A stretch of DNA of 32,852 bases from Segeticoccus rhizosphaerae (GCF_009192725.1 NZ_VOHR01000011.1:1-32852); one strand, 5' to 3'; shown: positions 3,408 to 10,932, numbered from the stretch's first letter. A program made the numbers and translations. Notes: generated by a model from the letters alone, not told the origin.

Positions 3408-4238
3408 ATGTCATCCGACCCCTGGCAGATCGACCGGCTCGACCTGGACGGCTACCTGCGCCGGCTCGGCATCGCCGCGCGGCAGCCGAGCAGGGCGGCA
3501 CTCGACGAACTGCACGAGGCGCACGTGCACACGTTCACCTTCGACAACATCGACGTGCTCCTCGGTGACCACCCCGGTGTCGGGCTGGACGCCATACAGG
3601 ACAAGTTCATCGGCCGCGGACGAGGCGGCTACTGCTTCGAGCACTCCACGCTCGTCGCGGCCGCCCTGGAGCGGCTCGGCTACCGGGTCCGGCGCCATCT
3701 GGGGCGAGTCGGCGACCCCGAGGCCGGCGCCCAGCAAGGACGCACGCACATGGTCGTCGAGGTGGTCCTCGACGGCGAGCGGCTGCTGTGCGACCCCGGC
3801 TTCGGGATGAGCCTGCTGCGACCGATCTCGATGATCGACGGAGCCGAGGACGACTACCCGCCGGGCTGGCGCCACCGACTGCGTCGCACCGATGACGGCG
3901 CCTGGGCGCTCGACCGGGCGCGGGAAGACGGCTGGCAGGTCACTCACACCACCGACGAGCTGGAGGTGAAGCCGGTCGACGTCCGCATGGGACACCACTA
4001 CACCAGCACCTACCCGGGCTCGCACTTCACCACTGGCTTGATGGTCGCCAAGCACCTTCCCGGCCGGCACGTCACCGTGACCGGCGACTCACTCACCGTG
4101 CGCAGACCCGGCGCGCCGACCGAGCACCGGCCGTTGGGCGACGGCGAGGTCGAGGAGTGGCTCGAGACGCTTGCGACAGGCCTGACGCCCGACGAGCGGG
4201 TGCGCCTGCTCGCCACGCTGGGGGCACCGGGCTCGTAG
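3408..4238 (+). CDS. nat: Arylamine N-acetyltransferase
   Basis: This 276-residue protein matches the usual bacterial NAT length. The catalytic triad is intact: C76 in RGGYCFEHS, H114 in RTHMVVEV and D129 in LLCDPGFG. NATs transfer an acyl group from acyl-CoA to arylamines, hydrazines or related amines by a ping-pong mechanism through the cysteine. In some actinomycetes NAT homologues act on pathway intermediates (for example in sterol catabolism or amide formation in natural products). The start ATG is nine bases after the LanC-like stop, without a strong ribosome binding site, suggesting translational coupling. Confidence 0.93.
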   Translation: MSSDPWQIDRLDLDGYLRRLGIAARQPSRAALDELHEAHVHTFTFDNIDVLLGDHPGVGLDAIQDKFIGRGRGGYCFEHSTLVAAALERLGYRVRRHLGRVGDPEAGAQQGRTHMVVEVVLDGERLLCDPGFGMSLLRPISMIDGAEDDYPPGWRHRLRRTDDGAWALDRAREDGWQVTHTTDELEVKPVDVRMGHHYTSTYPGSHFTTGLMVAKHLPGRHVTVTGDSLTVRRPGAPTEHRPLGDGEVEEWLETLATGLTPDERVRLLATLGAPGS

Positions 4239-4290
4239 CCACCAGACCCGGACCCGCGCCCGGTAGCTACTGCAGCGAAACCCCAGGGCC

Positions 4291-4324
4291 GTCCCCCGAC
4301 AGCGACAACAGACCGTCGGGGGAC
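4291..4324. terminator. 10-bp-stem hairpin between convergent genes
   Basis: GTCCCCCGAC (4291-4300) pairs perfectly with GTCGGGGGAC (4315-4324) around a 14-base loop containing CGACAACAGACC. It sits between the 3' ends of the nat and YceI genes, so it can serve both as terminator. The loop resembles those of the hairpins at 14230-14330 and 16739-16786. Confidence 0.7.
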
Positions 4325-4359
4325 GCGGCGACCGCTGGAGCGGAGGTCGTGCGGAGAGC

Positions 4360-4992
4360 TCAGGCGTCCTGCGTCGCGACGGCGATCGCCGAAACCTCGA
4401 ACTCGAGCTTGACCTTCTCGCTCACCAGCACGCCGCCCGTCTCGAGGGCCGCGTTCCAGCTGAGGTTCCAGTCCTTGCGGTTGATCGTGGCGCTGCCCTC
4501 GAAACCGGCGCGCAGGTTGCCGAACGGGTCACGCGCGGTGCCGCTCGCCTCGAAGTCGATGGTCACCGGCTTGGTGACGTCCTTGATCGTCAGGTCCCCG
4601 GTGACCCGCCAGGTCGAGGCGTCCACGCGGGAGACGTCGGTCGAGATGAAGGTGATCTCGGGGTAGGTCTCGACCTCGAAGAAGTCGGCCGACCGCAGGT
4701 GGCCGTCACGGTCCGCCGAGTGCGTGTCGATGCTGGCGGTCTTGATGGTGACCGAAGCCGACGACGCGGCCGGGTTCGACGCGTCGATCTGGGCGGTGCC
4801 GTCGAAGTCGTTGAACTGGCCGCGCACGGTGGTGACCATCGCGTGCTTGGTCGAGAAGCCGATGCGGGTGTGCGCCGGGTCGAGGGTCCAGCGCCCGGCG
4901 AGCTCGTCGGCCGAGGGCAACTCGGCACGCTTGGGGGCCACCGTCGTGGTGGCGTCGGGACGGGCGGTGCGGTTGCGACGGAACAGTGCCAT
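4360..4992 (-). CDS. YceI family lipid-binding-fold protein
   Basis: This 210-residue protein carries the YceI beta-barrel signature: LAGRWTLDPAHTRIGFSTKHAMVTTVRGQFNDFDG (about 33-67), then IDTHSADRDGHLRSADFFEVETYPEITFIST, and VTGDLTIKDVTKPVTIDFEASG. YceI proteins form lipocalin-like barrels that bind polyisoprenoid-like molecules and are often stress-induced. No signal peptide is seen; the N-terminus MALFRRNRTARPDATT is basic and polar, so a cytoplasmic location is likely. The start at 4992 is set by AAGGAG eight bases upstream (5000-5005 on this strand). The promoter region holds three alternating copies of TCAACT/AGTTGA, probably a MarR-type operator. Confidence 0.92.
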   Translation of the reverse strand: MALFRRNRTARPDATTTVAPKRAELPSADELAGRWTLDPAHTRIGFSTKHAMVTTVRGQFNDFDGTAQIDASNPAASSASVTIKTASIDTHSADRDGHLRSADFFEVETYPEITFISTDVSRVDASTWRVTGDLTIKDVTKPVTIDFEASGTARDPFGNLRAGFEGSATINRKDWNLSWNAALETGGVLVSEKVKLEFEVSAIAVATQDA

Positions 4993-5047
4993 GTGAAGAC
5001 TCCTTGTTTGGTGTGACCCGGGTGCGGGTCTGCGTGCTGACACTCCC

Positions 5048-5070
5048 TCAACTTAGTTGATTGTTCAACT
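5048..5070. promoter_or_regulatory. Three-half-site operator upstream of the YceI gene
   Basis: TCAACT (5048-5053), one base, AGTTGA (5055-5060), four bases, TCAACT (5065-5070). The second pair forms a perfect TAGTTGA-N4-TCAACTA palindrome (5054-5071). Size and symmetry fit a MarR-family dimer site. No MarR-like gene is in the window. Confidence 0.65.
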
Positions 5071-5105
5071 ATTCCCTCGATGATCACTTTCTTTGTGCAC
5101 GCCGG

Positions 5106-5132
5106 TGTCGATCGGCGGCGGCCTGAATCGTC
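5106..5132 (+). promoter_or_regulatory. Putative ECF42 promoter
   Basis: TGTCGA (5106-5111), 17 bases, CGTC (5129-5132), located 38 bases before the DGPF gene. As I recall, ECF42 sigma factors use a TGTCGA-type -35 and a CG(A/T)C-type -10, so this would make the DGPF-sigma unit autoregulated. Confidence 0.62.
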
Positions 5133-5170
5133 ATCTCCACGAACCGCCCGCGACGAGGAAGGATGAGCCC

Positions 5171-5560
5171 ATGCGTTACACGCTGCTGTTGCACTACCCG
5201 GAGATGACTGCCGAAGAGCTCGGTGAGGACGCCCTGACCGAGGGGATGGCCGCCTTCGACGCCTACGCGAAGGCCCTCGACGACGCCGGCGCGTTGCTGT
5301 CTGCGGAGGTCCTTGCCCCGAGCTCGGCGACGACGACCATCAGCCGCAAGACGGGCGAGCTGCTCGTCCAGGACGGCCCGTTCGCCGACACGAAGGAGCA
5401 GCTCGGAGGCACCTTCGTGATCGAGGTGCCGGACCTGGATGCCGCGCTCGCCTGGGCGGAGCAGGCTCCGTCTGCCGTTTACGGCGATGTCGAGATCCGT
5501 CCGACTGCGACCCGATTCGTCGACGGCGCCTGGACGCAGTGGACCTTCCCCGGCGAATGA
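5171..5560 (+). CDS. YCII/DGPF-domain protein, ECF42 partner
   Basis: This 129-residue protein begins MRYTLLLHYPEMTAEELGED, has the defining VQDGPFADTKEQLGGTFVIEVPDLDAALAWAEQ (about 73-103) and ends in a short C-terminal strand. DGPF proteins are ferredoxin-like-fold dimers of unknown chemistry. They are almost always encoded next to ECF42 sigma factors, as here. GGAAGGA at 5156-5162 is its ribosome binding site. Its stop TGA overlaps the sigma factor ATG (ATGA at 5557-5560), so expression of the two is coupled. Confidence 0.92.
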   Translation: MRYTLLLHYPEMTAEELGEDALTEGMAAFDAYAKALDDAGALLSAEVLAPSSATTTISRKTGELLVQDGPFADTKEQLGGTFVIEVPDLDAALAWAEQAPSAVYGDVEIRPTATRFVDGAWTQWTFPGE

Positions 5561-6798
5561 CGGGGGACCTGAGCGACGTGCAGGTGCGGGCGGCGGAGCT
5601 CGCCCGCACCTCCTACGGGCGCTTGCTTGCCCTCCTCGCGGCATCCACACGTGATCTCGCCCTCGCCGAGGACGTGCTCGCCGACGCGTTCGAACGCGCG
5701 CTGCGGACCTGGCCCACCGGAGGCGTGCCAGATCGCCCGGAGGCTTGGTTGCTCACCGTGGCGCGGAATCGCGCCCGCGACGCACAGGGCTCGGCGGCCG
5801 CGCGCACCTCGGTGCCGATCGATGCAGTGGACCGCCGCATCGCCGTGATCATGTCGGTCGACCCCGAAGCCATTCCCGACAAGCGGCTGGAACTGCTCTT
5901 CGTGTGCGCCCACCCGGCCATCGACCCCGGCATTCGCACGCCCCTCATGCTCAACACGGTGCTCGGGCTCGATGCCGCTGCCGTCGCCGCGGCGTTCGCC
6001 CTGCCCCGCGCGACCATGGCGCAACGCCTCGTGCGGGCCAAGCGGAGGGTCCGTGAGGCGGGAATCCCGTTCGCGGTGCCGTCACGCGCCGAGCTCCCTG
6101 CCCGCCGCGCCGCGGTCCTGGAGGCCATCTACGGCGCCTACGCGATCCAGTGGCAGGTCGCGGGCGCTCAGGAGCGCACCTCGCTGGCGGACGAAGCCCG
6201 CTACCTGGCGGTCCTGCTCGCCTCGCTGCTCGACGATGCGGAGGCCTGCGGTCTCGCATCGCTGATCTCGTTCGCCGCGGCGCGGGCGGACGCGCGTGAG
6301 GTCGACGGCGTCTTCGTGCCCCTGGACGACCAGGACATGACCCAATGGGATCCCGCACTGATCACCGACGGCGAACGACTACTGCGCGGGGCAACGCAGA
6401 TCCGCGCGCGAACGAAGGAACCCATCGGCCGCTTCCAGCTCGAGGCTGCCCTCCAGGAGGCTCACGCCGCACGCCGGTATGACGACCGGATCGACTGGCA
6501 GGGGGTCCTGCAGCTCACCGAGGCGCTCACCAGGGTCGCGCCGACGCTCGGAGCCCGGGTCGCCCTGGCGGCCGCCCGCGCACGGGTCGACGGGCCGGAC
6601 GCCGGGCTGGGCGAGCTCGAAGGCATCGACGATCCACTGGTCGAACGATTCCAGCCTGCCTGGGCCACCCGTGCCCAACTCCTCCTCCAGAGCGGACGCC
6701 GCCAGGAGGCCGCCCTCGCCTACGAGCGGGCGATCTCGCTGACGACCGAACCCGCACTCCGCAGGTTCCTCCAACACCGGCGCCACACCCTGGGGTGA
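5557..6798 (+). CDS. ECF42-type RNA polymerase sigma factor with long C-terminal extension
   Basis: This 413-residue protein is far longer than a minimal ECF sigma (about 180). Region 2 is near LAEDVLADAFERALRTWP (about 35-52) with PEAWLLTVARNRARD. Region 4 is near LNTVLGLDAAAVAAAFALPRATMAQRLVRAKRRVREAG (about 132-168). The rest is a helical TPR-like extension including VFVPLDDQDMTQWDPALI (about 252-270), which corresponds to the DQDRxxWD motif of the ECF42 group with Met in place of the usual Arg. In this group the extension is needed for activity and there is no anti-sigma factor. It is translationally coupled to the DGPF protein. Confidence 0.9.
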   Translation: MTGDLSDVQVRAAELARTSYGRLLALLAASTRDLALAEDVLADAFERALRTWPTGGVPDRPEAWLLTVARNRARDAQGSAAARTSVPIDAVDRRIAVIMSVDPEAIPDKRLELLFVCAHPAIDPGIRTPLMLNTVLGLDAAAVAAAFALPRATMAQRLVRAKRRVREAGIPFAVPSRAELPARRAAVLEAIYGAYAIQWQVAGAQERTSLADEARYLAVLLASLLDDAEACGLASLISFAAARADAREVDGVFVPLDDQDMTQWDPALITDGERLLRGATQIRARTKEPIGRFQLEAALQEAHAARRYDDRIDWQGVLQLTEALTRVAPTLGARVALAAARARVDGPDAGLGELEGIDDPLVERFQPAWATRAQLLLQSGRRQEAALAYERAISLTTEPALRRFLQHRRHTLG

Positions 6799-6810
6799 CG
6801 AGCACCCGGA

Positions 6811-6837
6811 TGTCACAGGCTGCCGCGCTGCCTCGTC
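6811..6837 (+). promoter_or_regulatory. ECF41 promoter, exact consensus match
   Basis: TGTCACA (6811-6817), exactly 16 bases, CGTC (6834-6837). This is the published ECF41 motif TGTCACA-N16-CGTC as I recall it. It lies 42 bases upstream of the epimerase-ECF41 operon, so the sigma factor should drive its own operon. Confidence 0.85.
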
Positions 6838-6879
6838 TTCGATGGTGACAGGCAAGCAGCGAAACGGGAGCGTGACGAG

Positions 6880-7794
6880 ATGCGAGTGTTCGTGGCAGGT
6901 GGGACCGGGGTCGTCGGGCGTCGTCTGGTGGAGCAGCTGGTGGGCCGTGGCCATCAGGTGGTCGCCACCACGACGAGCACCGGCAAGCTGGCGCAGCTGG
7001 AGGGGTTGGGTGCCGAGGGCATCGTGATGGACGGCTTGGATGCGGCCTCGGTGGGCGAGGCGGTGGCCCGCGCGCAGCCGGACACGATCGTGAACGAGAT
7101 GACGGCCCTGTCCGTGGCACACGCCGGCAAGCCCAACCCCAGGAGGCCCGCTCACTTCTTCGCCACCACCAATCGGCTGCGCAGCGAGGGGACCGACCAT
7201 CTCCTGGCCGCGGCCGAGGCGGCCGGCGTTCCCCACGTCGTCGCCCAGGGGCACGCCAGCATGAACGGCGTCCGCCAGGGCGGGTGGGTGAAGAGCGAGG
7301 AGGACGGTCTGGAAGTCGTGGAGGGCACGAGGGCGATCCGCCATCTCGAGGAGGTGGTCGTCAGAGCCGGCGGCGCGGTCCTGCGCTACGGCGGTTTCTA
7401 CGGGCCGTGCGCCAACGAGGACCAGGTCCGGCTCGTGCGGAAGCGCCTGGTCCCTCTCGTCGGGGCCGGCAGCGGGTACTTCTCCTGGGTGCACGTTGAC
7501 GACGCGGCGAGCGCTACGGTCCTTGCGGTGGAGCAGAAGGCGAGGGGCGTGTTCAACATCGTCGATGACGAACCGGCACCGGTCAGCGAGTGGCTGCCCT
7601 ATCTCGCCGAGTGCGCGGGGGCCAAGCCTCCGCGTCGGGTCCCTTACTGGCTGGCCAGGCTGCTGGCCGGCGAGATGATGGCGGGCGTGATGGTCGAAGG
7701 GCGTGCCTTCTCCAACGCCAAGGCAAAGCGGGAGCTCGGCTGGGAGCCGCAATACCCCTCGTGGCGACAGGGCTTCAAGGAAACCCTCCGATGA
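6880..7794 (+). CDS. NAD-dependent epimerase/dehydratase, ECF41 partner
   Basis: This 304-residue atypical short-chain dehydrogenase has MRVFVAGGTGVVGRRLVEQL (GGTGVVG dinucleotide-binding loop, 7-13), a sugar-epimerase-like middle (RTYGGFYGP-type LRYGGFYGPCANEDQ, about 167-181) and VFNIVDDEPAPVSEWLPYLA (about 225-245). I do not see a clean YxxxK pair, so catalysis is uncertain. ECF41 operons typically pair the sigma with a carboxymuconolactone decarboxylase, oxidoreductase or epimerase; this gene fills that slot. GGGAG (6866-6870) is its ribosome binding site. Its stop overlaps the sigma ATG (7791-7794). Confidence 0.88.
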   Translation: MRVFVAGGTGVVGRRLVEQLVGRGHQVVATTTSTGKLAQLEGLGAEGIVMDGLDAASVGEAVARAQPDTIVNEMTALSVAHAGKPNPRRPAHFFATTNRLRSEGTDHLLAAAEAAGVPHVVAQGHASMNGVRQGGWVKSEEDGLEVVEGTRAIRHLEEVVVRAGGAVLRYGGFYGPCANEDQVRLVRKRLVPLVGAGSGYFSWVHVDDAASATVLAVEQKARGVFNIVDDEPAPVSEWLPYLAECAGAKPPRRVPYWLARLLAGEMMAGVMVEGRAFSNAKAKRELGWEPQYPSWRQGFKETLR

Positions 7795-8717
7795 CGCAGG
7801 CAGAGGAGTTCGAGGAGCTGCGACCCCTGCTGTTCGCGATCGCCTACCGCATCCTCGGCAGCGTGGCTGAGGCCGAGGACGCGGTCCAGGAGACGTGGAT
7901 GCGCTATGCGACCTCCTCGACCCGGCCCACGTCGACCAGGGCCTTCTTGTCGGCGGTGGTCACGAGGGTTTCCATCGACGTGCTGCGTTCGGCGCGCGTC
8001 CGACGGGAGACGTACGTCGGGCCGTGGTTTCCCGAGCCGTTGGTCAACGATCCGTATGACGACCCGGAGCGCTCGGCGGAGCTGGCCGACTCCGTGTCGA
8101 CGGCGGCCCTGTTGCTGCTCGAGCGGCTCACCCCGCTCGAGCGGGCCGTCTTCGTGCTGCGGGAGGTGTTCGGGTTCGGCTTTCCCGAGGTCGCAGTGGC
8201 CGTCGAGCGCTCCGAGGCAGCGTGCCGCCAGCTCGCGACCAGGGCACGGCGTCACATGGACCTCGGGCGCCCTCGGTTCGAGGCGGACCGCCGCGAACGT
8301 GAGGAGCTTGCGGCACGCTTCTTCGAGGCGCTCCGAAATGGCGATGTCGACGGATTGAGGCGGTTGTTGGCCGCCGACGTGCAGATGGTGGGCGACGGCG
8401 GGGGGAAGGCGCCGGCATTTGCTCGAGGTGTGATCGGTGCCGACAACGTCGCGCGAGTCCTTGCCTCGACCTTCCCATGGCTGACCCGGATCGACGCGAG
8501 GGTGGAGGCGCACACGTTGAACGGGCACCCGGGTGCGATCCTGCGCGATCGGGACGCCAAGGTCATCGGCACGTTGACGCTGGACGTGCTCGACGGGCAG
8601 ATCCAGATGATCCGCTCGGTGATCAACCCCGACAAGCTCGGGCACCTGGGTCCCGTGGCGGACGCCTGGGCGCTCGACAGCGAGGTGAAGCGGGCCCGCC
8701 GGTCGTCCAAGGACTGA
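7791..8717 (+). CDS. ECF41-type sigma factor with SnoaL-like C-terminal domain
   Basis: This 308-residue sigma factor has region 2 in YRILGSVAEAEDAVQETWMRY (about 19-40) and region 4 in LERLTPLERAVFVLREVFGFGFPEVAVAVERSEAACRQLATRARRH (about 108-153). The linker has WFPEPL at W79, and the SnoaL-like C-terminal domain contains DGGGK (D202) and NPDKL (N279). All three are hallmark motifs of the ECF41 group, whose C-terminal domain both supports and restrains activity in place of an anti-sigma factor. It follows the epimerase with an ATGA overlap. Confidence 0.95.
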   Translation: MTQAEEFEELRPLLFAIAYRILGSVAEAEDAVQETWMRYATSSTRPTSTRAFLSAVVTRVSIDVLRSARVRRETYVGPWFPEPLVNDPYDDPERSAELADSVSTAALLLLERLTPLERAVFVLREVFGFGFPEVAVAVERSEAACRQLATRARRHMDLGRPRFEADRREREELAARFFEALRNGDVDGLRRLLAADVQMVGDGGGKAPAFARGVIGADNVARVLASTFPWLTRIDARVEAHTLNGHPGAILRDRDAKVIGTLTLDVLDGQIQMIRSVINPDKLGHLGPVADAWALDSEVKRARRSSKD

Positions 8718-8730
8718 GCCCGAACGGCCG

Positions 8731-8940
8731 TCACTCGTCGATGCGGAACCCGACCTTCATCCCGACCTGGTAGTGCTCGACCTGCCCGTCCTCGAGGTGC
8801 CCACGGATCTGGGTCACCTCGAACCAGTCCAGGTTGCGGACCGTCGCCGACGCCCGCTGCAGCCCGCTGCGGATGGCGTCGTCGACGCCGTCCTGGGACG
8901 TGCCGACGATCTCGGTGACGCGGTAGGTGTGCGTGGACAT
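8731..8940 (-). CDS. Dodecin-like flavin-binding protein
   Basis: This 69-residue protein, MSTHTYRVTEIVGTSQDGVDDAIRSGLQRASATVRNLDWFEV plus VEHYQVGMKVGFRIDE, matches dodecin in length and pattern. Dodecins assemble into hollow dodecamers that store flavins. The central Trp in the NLDWFEV strand is the residue that stacks on the isoalloxazine ring. A GGGAGAG ribosome binding site precedes the ATG. It converges on the ECF41 gene with a 13-base gap and no clear terminator. Confidence 0.9.
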   Translation of the reverse strand: MSTHTYRVTEIVGTSQDGVDDAIRSGLQRASATVRNLDWFEVTQIRGHLEDGQVEHYQVGMKVGFRIDE

Positions 8941-8953
8941 GGGCTCTCCCGGA

Positions 8954-8992
8954 TGCTCGACGTGGTTGCTCGACGTGGTTGCTCGACCTGCT
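8954..8992. repeat. 13-bp tandem repeat (about 3 copies) upstream of dodecin
   Basis: TGCTCGACGTGGT occurs at 8954-8966 and 8967-8979, with a diverged third copy TGCTCGACCTGCT at 8980-8992. It lies 14 bases upstream of the dodecin start, in its presumed promoter region. The rest of the 8941-9073 gap shows no gene. Confidence 0.85.
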
Positions 8993-9073
8993 CATCGATG
9001 CTGACCCGGCCATTTCACCGTGCCCCCGCGATCTTGTCCACGGCCAGGGAAGGGCTGCCAGGTTGCCCACCCG

Positions 9074-9976
9074 CTAGATGCCCAGCGCTGCCACAGCAGT
9101 CCGGGTCCGGGTGACGAAGTCGAGCGCGGTGGGCGGCGGGCCCTGCGCGAGGTGCGCGAGCAGGATGCTGCGGAAGGGCAGAGCCGGTTCGATCTGCAGC
9201 ACCCGCACCCCCGGGTCGGCCATGTTCACCGACAGCGCGGGCATCACCGCCGTCCCGATCCCGGCGCGCACCATCGCCTGCACCGCCGCGTTGTCGTTGC
9301 TGCGGAAGGCGTAGGACGGTCGGATGCCCGCGGCGGCGAAGCCCTGTTCGGCCAGGTCATGGCACACGCAGTGGTCGTGCCCGATGACGGGACGTCGCGC
9401 GACCTCGCTGATCGGCAGCACGTCGCGCGCCGGGTCGTCGACCGGCACCATCGCGACGAACGGGTCGCGCACGATCTCGTGGACGACCAGCTCGTCGGAC
9501 TCGACGGGGCCGACCAGGAAGCTCACGTCGAGCCGGGAGCTGCGCAGCGCCCTGGTCAGGACCTCGTTGTCGTCGCTCTCGAGGACACTGACCTCGACCT
9601 CTGGACGCTCCCGCCGGACCTCGCTGAGGATGCCCGGGAGCAGTCTCGCCGACACCGACTGGAAGGTGCCGATCGCCAGACGTCCCCAGGCGCCCTCCCG
9701 CACCGAGGCGACTCGCACGTCGAGCAGGTCGGCAGCGGCCAACATCTCCCGTGCGGTCGCGAGCACCTCCCTGCCGGCCGCGGTCAACACAGCTGCTCGT
9801 GGACCGCCGCGGCGGTCGAACACCCGCGCGCCCAAAGCCTTTTCGAGTGTCGCGACCTGGCTGGTGATCGCAGCAGCAGAGTAGCCGAGGCGCTCCGCGG
9901 CACGCCGGTAGGAACCCTCCTCCTCGATCGCGACGACCGCCGCGAGGTGGCGCAGACTGAGCTCGGAGGCGGACAC
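9074..9976 (-). CDS. LysR family transcriptional regulator
   Basis: This 300-residue LTTR has an N-terminal winged helix-turn-helix: LRHLAAVVAIEEEGSYRRAAERLGYSAAAITSQVATLEKALGARVFDRRGG (about 8-58). A linker helix follows, then a substrate-binding domain: LAIGTFQSVSARLLPGILSEVRRERPEVEVSVLE (about 99-132) and GIGTAVMPALSV (about 240-252). The GTG start at 9976 is six bases after a TATGCT -10 on this strand. A T-N11-A box covers its -35 region, which fits negative autoregulation and control of the divergent dioxygenase gene. The inducer is unknown. Confidence 0.93.
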   Translation of the reverse strand: MSASELSLRHLAAVVAIEEEGSYRRAAERLGYSAAAITSQVATLEKALGARVFDRRGGPRAAVLTAAGREVLATAREMLAAADLLDVRVASVREGAWGRLAIGTFQSVSARLLPGILSEVRRERPEVEVSVLESDDNEVLTRALRSSRLDVSFLVGPVESDELVVHEIVRDPFVAMVPVDDPARDVLPISEVARRPVIGHDHCVCHDLAEQGFAAAGIRPSYAFRSNDNAAVQAMVRAGIGTAVMPALSVNMADPGVRVLQIEPALPFRSILLAHLAQGPPPTALDFVTRTRTAVAALGI

Positions 9977-9982
9977 GCGCCC

Positions 9983-9988
9983 AGCATA
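9983..9988 (-). promoter_or_regulatory. -10 element of the LysR gene (leaderless)
   Basis: TATGCT on the minus strand, six bases before the GTG at 9976. Confidence 0.5.
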
Positions 9989-9991
9989 GTG

Positions 9992-10014
9992 AGTGTTCGC
10001 TTTTATCGAACGCT
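9992..10014. promoter_or_regulatory. LysR-type operator (T-N11-A) in divergent promoter
   Basis: AGTGTTCG (9992-9999), seven bases, CGAACGCT (10007-10014): eight-base arms with one mismatch. The inner TCG-N7-CGA is a classic T-N11-A LTTR box. It lies between the LysR gene and the dioxygenase gene. Confidence 0.75.
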
Positions 10015-10098
10015 ACGGATGTAAATGGCCACTTTTCCTGCCCGCTCGCTTCTGTCACGCTGAGGTCGTCCGCCCCGAGAGCACGAAGGATGACCATA

Positions 10099-10932
10099 GT
10101 GACCATGACCGCTCCCCACCCCGCATCCGTCATCGACGACGCCTCCGTGACCGAATTCGCCGAGACGGGGTCGGTCCTCGTGCGAGGTCTGTTCAGCCCT
10201 GACGAGGTCGCCACCATCGAGCAGGGCATCGAGAAGGTCCTCGCCGACCCCAGCCCCCGCTTCAAGGTGGCCAGCAGCGACACCGACCCGGGCAGCTTCG
10301 TCGAGGACTTCTGCAACTGGCAGCGGATCGAGGAATTGCGGCAGATCGCCTTCAGCTCACGTGCGGCCGACGTCGCTGCGGCACTCACCGCCAGCCGTCA
10401 GGTGCGCCTCTACCACGACCACGTGCTGGTGAAGGAGCCACGCACCCGGCAGGAGACGCCGTGGCACCAGGACCAGCCCTATTACAACGTCGACGGTTTC
10501 GCCAACTGCTCGATGTGGGCGCCGGTCGACTCCGTGCCCGCCGAGTCGACGCTGGAGTTCCTGTCCGGGTCACACCGTCAGGGCTGGCTGATGCCGCGCT
10601 CCTTCATGACCAACGAGGCCAAGTGGTTCCCCGAGGGCTCGCTGAACGACCTGCCCGACGTCGAGGCCGATCGCGGCGCCCACGACATCCGCGGCTGGGC
10701 CATGGAGCCGGGGGACGCCGTGTTCTTCCACATGCTCACCCTGCACCACTCGTATGGCGTACCCGGCACCTCGCGACGCCGCGCGTTCTCGTTGCGGTTC
10801 CTCGGCGACGACATGGTGCATGCCCCACGCCGCTGGGTCACCTCCCCGCAGTTCGACGGCCTCGAGGACGAGCTGCCCGGCGGATCGCCCATGGACCACC
10901 CGCTCTTCCCCGTCCTGCGCGAGACCGCCTGA
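10099..10932 (+). CDS. Phytanoyl-CoA dioxygenase (PhyH) family protein
   Basis: This 277-residue non-haem Fe(II)/2-oxoglutarate-type oxygenase has an iron triad that can be assigned: H123 and D125 in TPWHQDQPYYNVDG, and the distal His (H216 or H217) in HMLTLHHSYGVPG, followed by RRAFSLRFLGDD with Arg for 2-oxoglutarate. The segment LRLYHDHVLVKEP before the HxD is typical of the family. Substrate is unknown; such enzymes hydroxylate lipids or secondary metabolites. I prefer the GTG at 10099 because GAAGGA (10085-10090) is eight bases upstream; ATG 10090 and ATG 10105 are alternatives. It is divergent from the LysR gene that probably controls it. Confidence 0.88.
   Translation: MTMTAPHPASVIDDASVTEFAETGSVLVRGLFSPDEVATIEQGIEKVLADPSPRFKVASSDTDPGSFVEDFCNWQRIEELRQIAFSSRAADVAAALTASRQVRLYHDHVLVKEPRTRQETPWHQDQPYYNVDGFANCSMWAPVDSVPAESTLEFLSGSHRQGWLMPRSFMTNEAKWFPEGSLNDLPDVEADRGAHDIRGWAMEPGDAVFFHMLTLHHSYGVPGTSRRRAFSLRFLGDDMVHAPRRWVTSPQFDGLEDELPGGSPMDHPLFPVLRETA

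Follow-up and report, generated by a model that had tools for sequence, protein, structure and literature searches.

Tandem ECF42 and ECF41 sigma factor operons in Segeticoccus rhizosphaerae, a pairing apparently assembled more than once among actinobacteria

Background

ECF41 and ECF42 are widespread groups of extracytoplasmic function (ECF) sigma factors under the control of C-terminal extensions, DGGGK and NPDKL being motifs of the ECF41 extension and the ECF42 extension being a requirement for activity in that group, and we know of no natural signal for either group. We describe here a stretch of 32,852 nucleotides from Segeticoccus rhizosphaerae (GCF_009192725.1, NZ_VOHR01000011.1:1-32852; the window hereafter), in which an ECF42 operon is followed directly, on the same strand, by an ECF41 operon. 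A WLPEP linker motif is a hallmark of ECF41 (PMC3426412). The promoters mapped in S. meliloti carry TGTCACA for ECF41 and TGTCG for ECF42 with the same N16 spacing, and the target promoters of RpoE10, as mapped, agree with a TGTCG-type -35 (PMC6180224). A first-pass annotation of the window, made from the sequence alone, knew of no description of such a linked pair. We likewise found no tandem ECF42-ECF41 pair in the literature searched, although the central ECF42 papers (Liu 2018), Wu 2019 and the 2021 ECF reclassification lay outside that search and an earlier mention is possible.

Results

The first-pass annotation had described two adjacent, co-directional operons, each ordered partner-ATGA-sigma, and this layout was confirmed by open reading frame (ORF) calls and by Pfam and NCBIfam matches. 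The DGPF/YCII-ECF42 operon (5171-6798, +) directly precedes the epimerase-ECF41 operon (6880-8717, +), head to tail, with a gap of 81 bp. The features of the tandem are:

5106-5132, +, ECF42-type promoter TGTCGAT-N16-CGTC, its -35 lying 65 nt before the start codon of DGPF
5171-5560, +, YCII/DGPF partner, 129 aa, with VQDGPF (Pfam PF03795, 64.6 bits, E 1.2e-17)
5557-5560, +, ATGA shared by the DGPF stop and the ECF42 start (from the sequence)
5557-6798, +, ECF42 sigma factor, 413 aa (Pfam: Sigma70_r2, DUF6596 at ~74.1-78 bits, weak TPR_2)
6811-6837, +, ECF41 promoter TGTCACA-N16-CGTC preceding the epimerase, its -35 beginning 12 bp past the ECF42 stop
6880-7794, +, NAD-dependent epimerase/dehydratase-family partner, 304 aa (Pfam PF01370, 56.9 bits, E 2.7e-15)
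7791-7794, +, ATGA shared by the epimerase stop and the ECF41 start (from the sequence)
7791-8717, +, ECF41 sigma factor of the SigJ type, 308 aa (TIGR02957, 361.6 bits)

Taken singly, the two operons are ordinary representatives of known ECF groups. The TIGR02957 score of the ECF41 protein exceeds the cut-off of 323 set for that family in NCBIfam, and its domains are Sigma70_r2, Sigma70_r4_2 and a SnoaL-like C-terminal extension, for which the SnoaL_2 match is weak and under the Pfam cut-off. The nearest PDB chain is that of SigJ (5xe7, E 5e-48, aligned over residues 3-283). The protein displays WFPEP, one conservative change away from the WLPEP linker motif, together with DGGGK and NPDKL, both frequent among the 210 ECF41s aligned. 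Two further marks of the group, a COE partner gene and the TGTCACA-N16-CGTC promoter, are present as the upstream epimerase and the element at 6811-6837, an exact match to the ECF41 consensus published by Wecke et al. 2012 (PMC3426412). Similarly, the ECF42 gene has a YCII/DGPF gene directly upstream, overlapping it by the ATGA, and a TGTCG-type -35 with a CGTC -10 that is conserved in orthologues. In the AlphaFold model (pLDDT 86) the C-terminal half of the ECF42 protein forms confident paired helices, and a fold search with this model ranked TPR proteins first, albeit weakly, none reaching E 0.001. The protein has sigma domains followed by a TPR-like extension, in keeping with the TPR-rich extension of about 200 residues expected for ECF42.

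Both promoter elements were searched for genome-wide (4.4 Mb) and in related loci. TGTCACA-N15-17-CGTC occurred four times in the genome, and an ECF41-type element was present in 66 of the 80 closest ECF41 loci when TGTC was also accepted at the -10. Among 20 ECF42 orthologues, seven carried TGTCGAT-N16-CGTC at 62-154 nt before the ATG of DGPF, and these seven were the only exact sites in 583 kb of strand-bases from the ECF42 orthologue loci; an eighth had a CGTT variant, the element was not found in the remaining 12 loci, and three Georgenia species displayed TGTCGAG-N16-CGTC at the corresponding position. The genome search with TGTCGAT-N15-17-CGTC gave 26 matches, of which only the window's own was at one of the ECF42 or ECF41 operons examined. 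The ECF42 motif was rejected as a definer of a regulon because it matches too often in GC-rich sequence. Considering that the two -35 elements are different and class-specific (TGTCGAT and TGTCACA), each operon is most simply taken to be autoregulated from its own promoter, as promoter conservation and the studied members of both groups suggest, and the motifs give no reason to expect a cascade.

The S. rhizosphaerae genome (761 contigs, 95% complete; its family includes Terrabacter) contains seven ECF42 genes and three full-length ECF41 genes. Two of these three ECF41s are preceded by an ECF42 in the same orientation, one in the window and the other on contig C131. By a rough, post hoc approximation that assumes uniform placement, the chance of such an ECF42 within 3 kb is P ~0.007 for at least one of the three ECF41s and P ~2e-5 for two of the three, as found. 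The ECF42s of the two places are 36% identical and the ECF41s 52.5%, values that led us to reject a recent duplication as the origin of the second pair. A third ECF41-like sigma, on contig C4 (L017, 4472-6236), is divergent in sequence, with the degenerate motifs LPDP, DGGGS and DPERL, and its NAD-dependent epimerase is divergently oriented.

An ECF42 was found within 8 kb in eight loci, from about six lineages, of the 80 closest ECF41 relatives (GTDB genomes), where ~1.1 were expected by a scaling from 50 genomes that include all eight linked ones. Pooling the surveys gave seven lineages against 2.8 expected (P ~0.02). Adjacency is not a general property of the relatives and is kept only within Georgenia, in three of the four sampled Georgenia ECF41 loci. 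A search of plasmids gave no sign of a mobile pair, the only ECF42s detected being distant (~50% identity or less) and mostly on large Paraburkholderia and Caballeronia replicons.

The three Georgenia species (G. thermotolerans, L134; G. ruanii, L177; Georgenia sp. EYE_87, L136) present DGPF-ECF42-epimerase-ECF41 in the order and orientation of the window and with both promoter classes, while in a fourth, G. subflava, the ECF41 cassette has no ECF42 nearby. When the G. thermotolerans locus was compared with the window DNA, a single block was aligned (78.4% over 1909 nt) that starts shortly ahead of the -35 box of ECF41 and ends within ECF41, the ECF42 half being unaligned. At the protein level, the Georgenia ECF42s are 33-35% and the DGPFs 27-29% identical to those of the window. 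Other arrangements were also found: in a Catenulispora metagenome-assembled genome a YCII-ECF42 pair is convergent with an ECF41 cassette, and in four genomes of one further genus of the order (g66) the orthologue of the window ECF42 lies one gene away from a convergent ECF41-like sigma, which in the one annotated locus has a divergent epimerase. In a tree of ECF41s, on which support is modest for many branches, the linked cases are scattered. A conserved ancestral pair was rejected on the grounds of this scatter and because the window has only the ECF41 cassette in common with Georgenia. As the cassette is shared but the ECF42s are unlike, and the linked ECF41s do not group together, the pairing has most likely arisen on several occasions from distinct components, with different ECF42 subfamilies. 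What is new is the recurrence of an ECF42-ECF41 tandem that was, it seems, put together independently.

Georgenia sp. EYE_87 has a further peculiarity, in that its epimerase is apparently part-duplicated in tandem (L136, 6420-7959), a truncated first copy lying behind a degenerate promoter and an intact one behind TGTCACA-N16-CGTC at 6905.

The genes around the tandem, by Pfam and NCBIfam annotation, encode YceI, an arylamine N-acetyltransferase, a dodecin and LysR, and an anti-sigma gene was not detected next to either operon, as the first-pass annotation had stated. That annotation had also suggested that the dodecin might belong to the unit. However, the dodecin gene (8731-8940) lies on the - strand and runs towards ECF41, the two genes ending 13 bp apart, and therefore cannot be co-transcribed with the ECF operons; moreover, the loci of the 80 closest ECF41 relatives, covered for up to 8 kb to either side, yielded no dodecin. 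On these two grounds the dodecin was rejected as a part of the unit. Upstream, 3408-4992 holds the arylamine N-acetyltransferase (+) and the YceI-like protein (-), the latter divergent from the DGPF operon, so that 4993-5170 is a two-way intergenic region. Downstream, at 9074-10932, a LysR-type regulator (-) is divergent from a PhyH dioxygenase (+), a classic regulator-target layout. Rfam and tRNA scans of the window gave no matches.

Discussion

We believe that the tandem may consist of two autonomous, autoregulated modules with a one-way read-through link from the ECF42 operon, a reading drawn from the sequence to which we give a probability of about one half. Each sigma would be controlled by its own C-terminal extension and would fire at its own operon, ECF42 from TGTCGAT-N16-CGTC and ECF41 from TGTCACA-N16-CGTC. 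The ECF42-driven transcript would run on past 6798 into epimerase-ECF41, and an active ECF42 would thus cause more ECF41 to be made, which would be a one-way link of dosage and not a promoter cascade. Read-through is plausible because only 12 bp separate the ECF42 stop from the ECF41 -35 and a scan requiring a T run found no terminator-like site in 4900-9100. In addition, the tandem order occurs at two places in the genome and in Georgenia with ECF42 always upstream, which favours a directional link, and an ECF42 module has apparently been placed directly upstream of an ECF41 cassette more than once. Whether ECF42 modules are repeatedly recruited to that position because read-through yields a one-way coupled, two-sigma composite module is a more speculative matter, and we regard it as rather doubtful; the description of that composite as two systems, each with its regulator in a fused domain, is put forward just as tentatively.

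Several observations weigh against the read-through link. In GC-rich actinobacteria transcription can end at sites that lack a T run, and the terminator scan is therefore weak evidence. On contig C131 the two modules are separated by one gene, a putative LLM-type oxidoreductase as read from its sequence. The neighbourhood survey gave no general, obligatory link: in 51 other genomes of the family an ECF42 was within 7 kb of ECF41 in 0/73 loci (1.04 expected), and in a random class-level sample it was linked in 1/52 ECF41 loci (0.67 expected, about chance). The same survey did find the pair again on C131 and in three Georgenia species with the four genes in the same order, so that, of the two findings which the first-pass annotation together named as fatal to a functional link (operons unlinked in all relatives, and independent expression), the first does not hold. 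Linkage is, then, rare overall and modestly enriched around the ECF41 subgroup of the window. As a caution with regard to autoregulation, the S. meliloti ECF42 sigma, when overexpressed, did not activate its own YCII-sigma operon (PMC6180224).

The serious rival is insertion into common hot spots, whereby widespread multi-copy cassettes would land in the same variable regions and remain independent neighbours, their adjacency having no function; we consider this a genuine possibility, if not a probable one. The family and class counts, with no excess over chance, fit it well, as do the scattered positions of the linked ECF41s on the tree and the convergent arrangements in Catenulispora and genus g66. 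The window ECF41 is, furthermore, no closer to its own family (83% to Terrabacter) than to genes of other actinobacterial orders (85% to Qaidamihabitans). ECF41s themselves also occur close together: the 52 class-sample loci include three pairs no more than 7 kb apart (G458:C1, G453:C91 and G445:C3) against 0.18 expected, and this favours hot spots. Neutral neighbours are harder to reconcile with two of the three ECF41s of one genome having a same-strand upstream ECF42, with a tandem kept in three Georgenia species, and with the enrichment of ECF42 near the 80 closest ECF41 relatives.

The first-pass annotation had suggested instead a cascade or a shared stress input, and neither gained support from the class-specific -35s and from relatives that are mostly unlinked. 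A promoter-level cascade, in which one sigma would also read the promoter of the other operon, could draw on the TGTC, CGTC and spacing that both promoters share, 8 of 11 element bases being the same and only the last three -35 bases differing. These three bases, nevertheless, are conserved separately for each class, both in relatives and in the mapped S. meliloti promoters, and the scanned upstream regions show only the own-class promoter at each operon. Moreover, the S. meliloti ECF41 sigma has a single target, which is not an ECF42 gene (PMC6180224), and ECF41 sigmas are reported to control their own locus only (PMC3426412), so that we hold a cascade to be very unlikely. Hardly more probable is a shared input, with the DGPF protein and the epimerase acting in one detoxification or oxidative-stress response, both sigmas answering one signal and the pairing serving to hold them together. 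The recurrence of the pairing with different ECF42 subfamilies would agree with it, and oxidative stress has been tied to some members of each group (PMC8103513, PMC8999054); on the other hand, neither partner has a known ligand or substrate here, and the ECF41 cassettes of most relatives have no nearby ECF42.

If the pairing is functional, two systems would be tied to one transcript, and Georgenia would offer a culturable test case in which inducing one system should raise the other. If it reflects hot-spot insertion only, the locus is a warning against inferring function from the neighbourhoods of sigma factors.

Comparison with known systems

The ECF41 operon of the window resembles those of SigJ (M. 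tuberculosis), Ecf41Bli, Ecf41Rsp and S. meliloti RpoE9 in its upstream, co-directional partner and lack of an anti-sigma gene, as well as in its SnoaL-like extension, WLPEP-type linker motif and TGTCACA-N16-CGTC promoter, and differs from them only by the ECF42 operon directly upstream. The ECF42 operon, for its part, shares with those of S. venezuelae Sven_0747, Sven_4377 and Sven_7131, P. putida ECF-10 and S. meliloti RpoE10 a YCII/DGPF gene directly upstream, a TPR-like extension, a TGTCG-type promoter and the absence of an anti-sigma gene. Unlike them, it has an ECF41 operon directly downstream, and its sigma belongs to a divergent subfamily (DUF6596 at ~74.1-78 bits, versus 105-125 in the genome's remaining ECF42s). 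The three Georgenia loci present the gene order, orientation and promoter classes of the window and a homologous ECF41 cassette, but their ECF42 and DGPF are of another subfamily and their gap is 145-166 bp instead of 81 bp, Georgenia sp. EYE_87 differing also by its partly duplicated epimerase.

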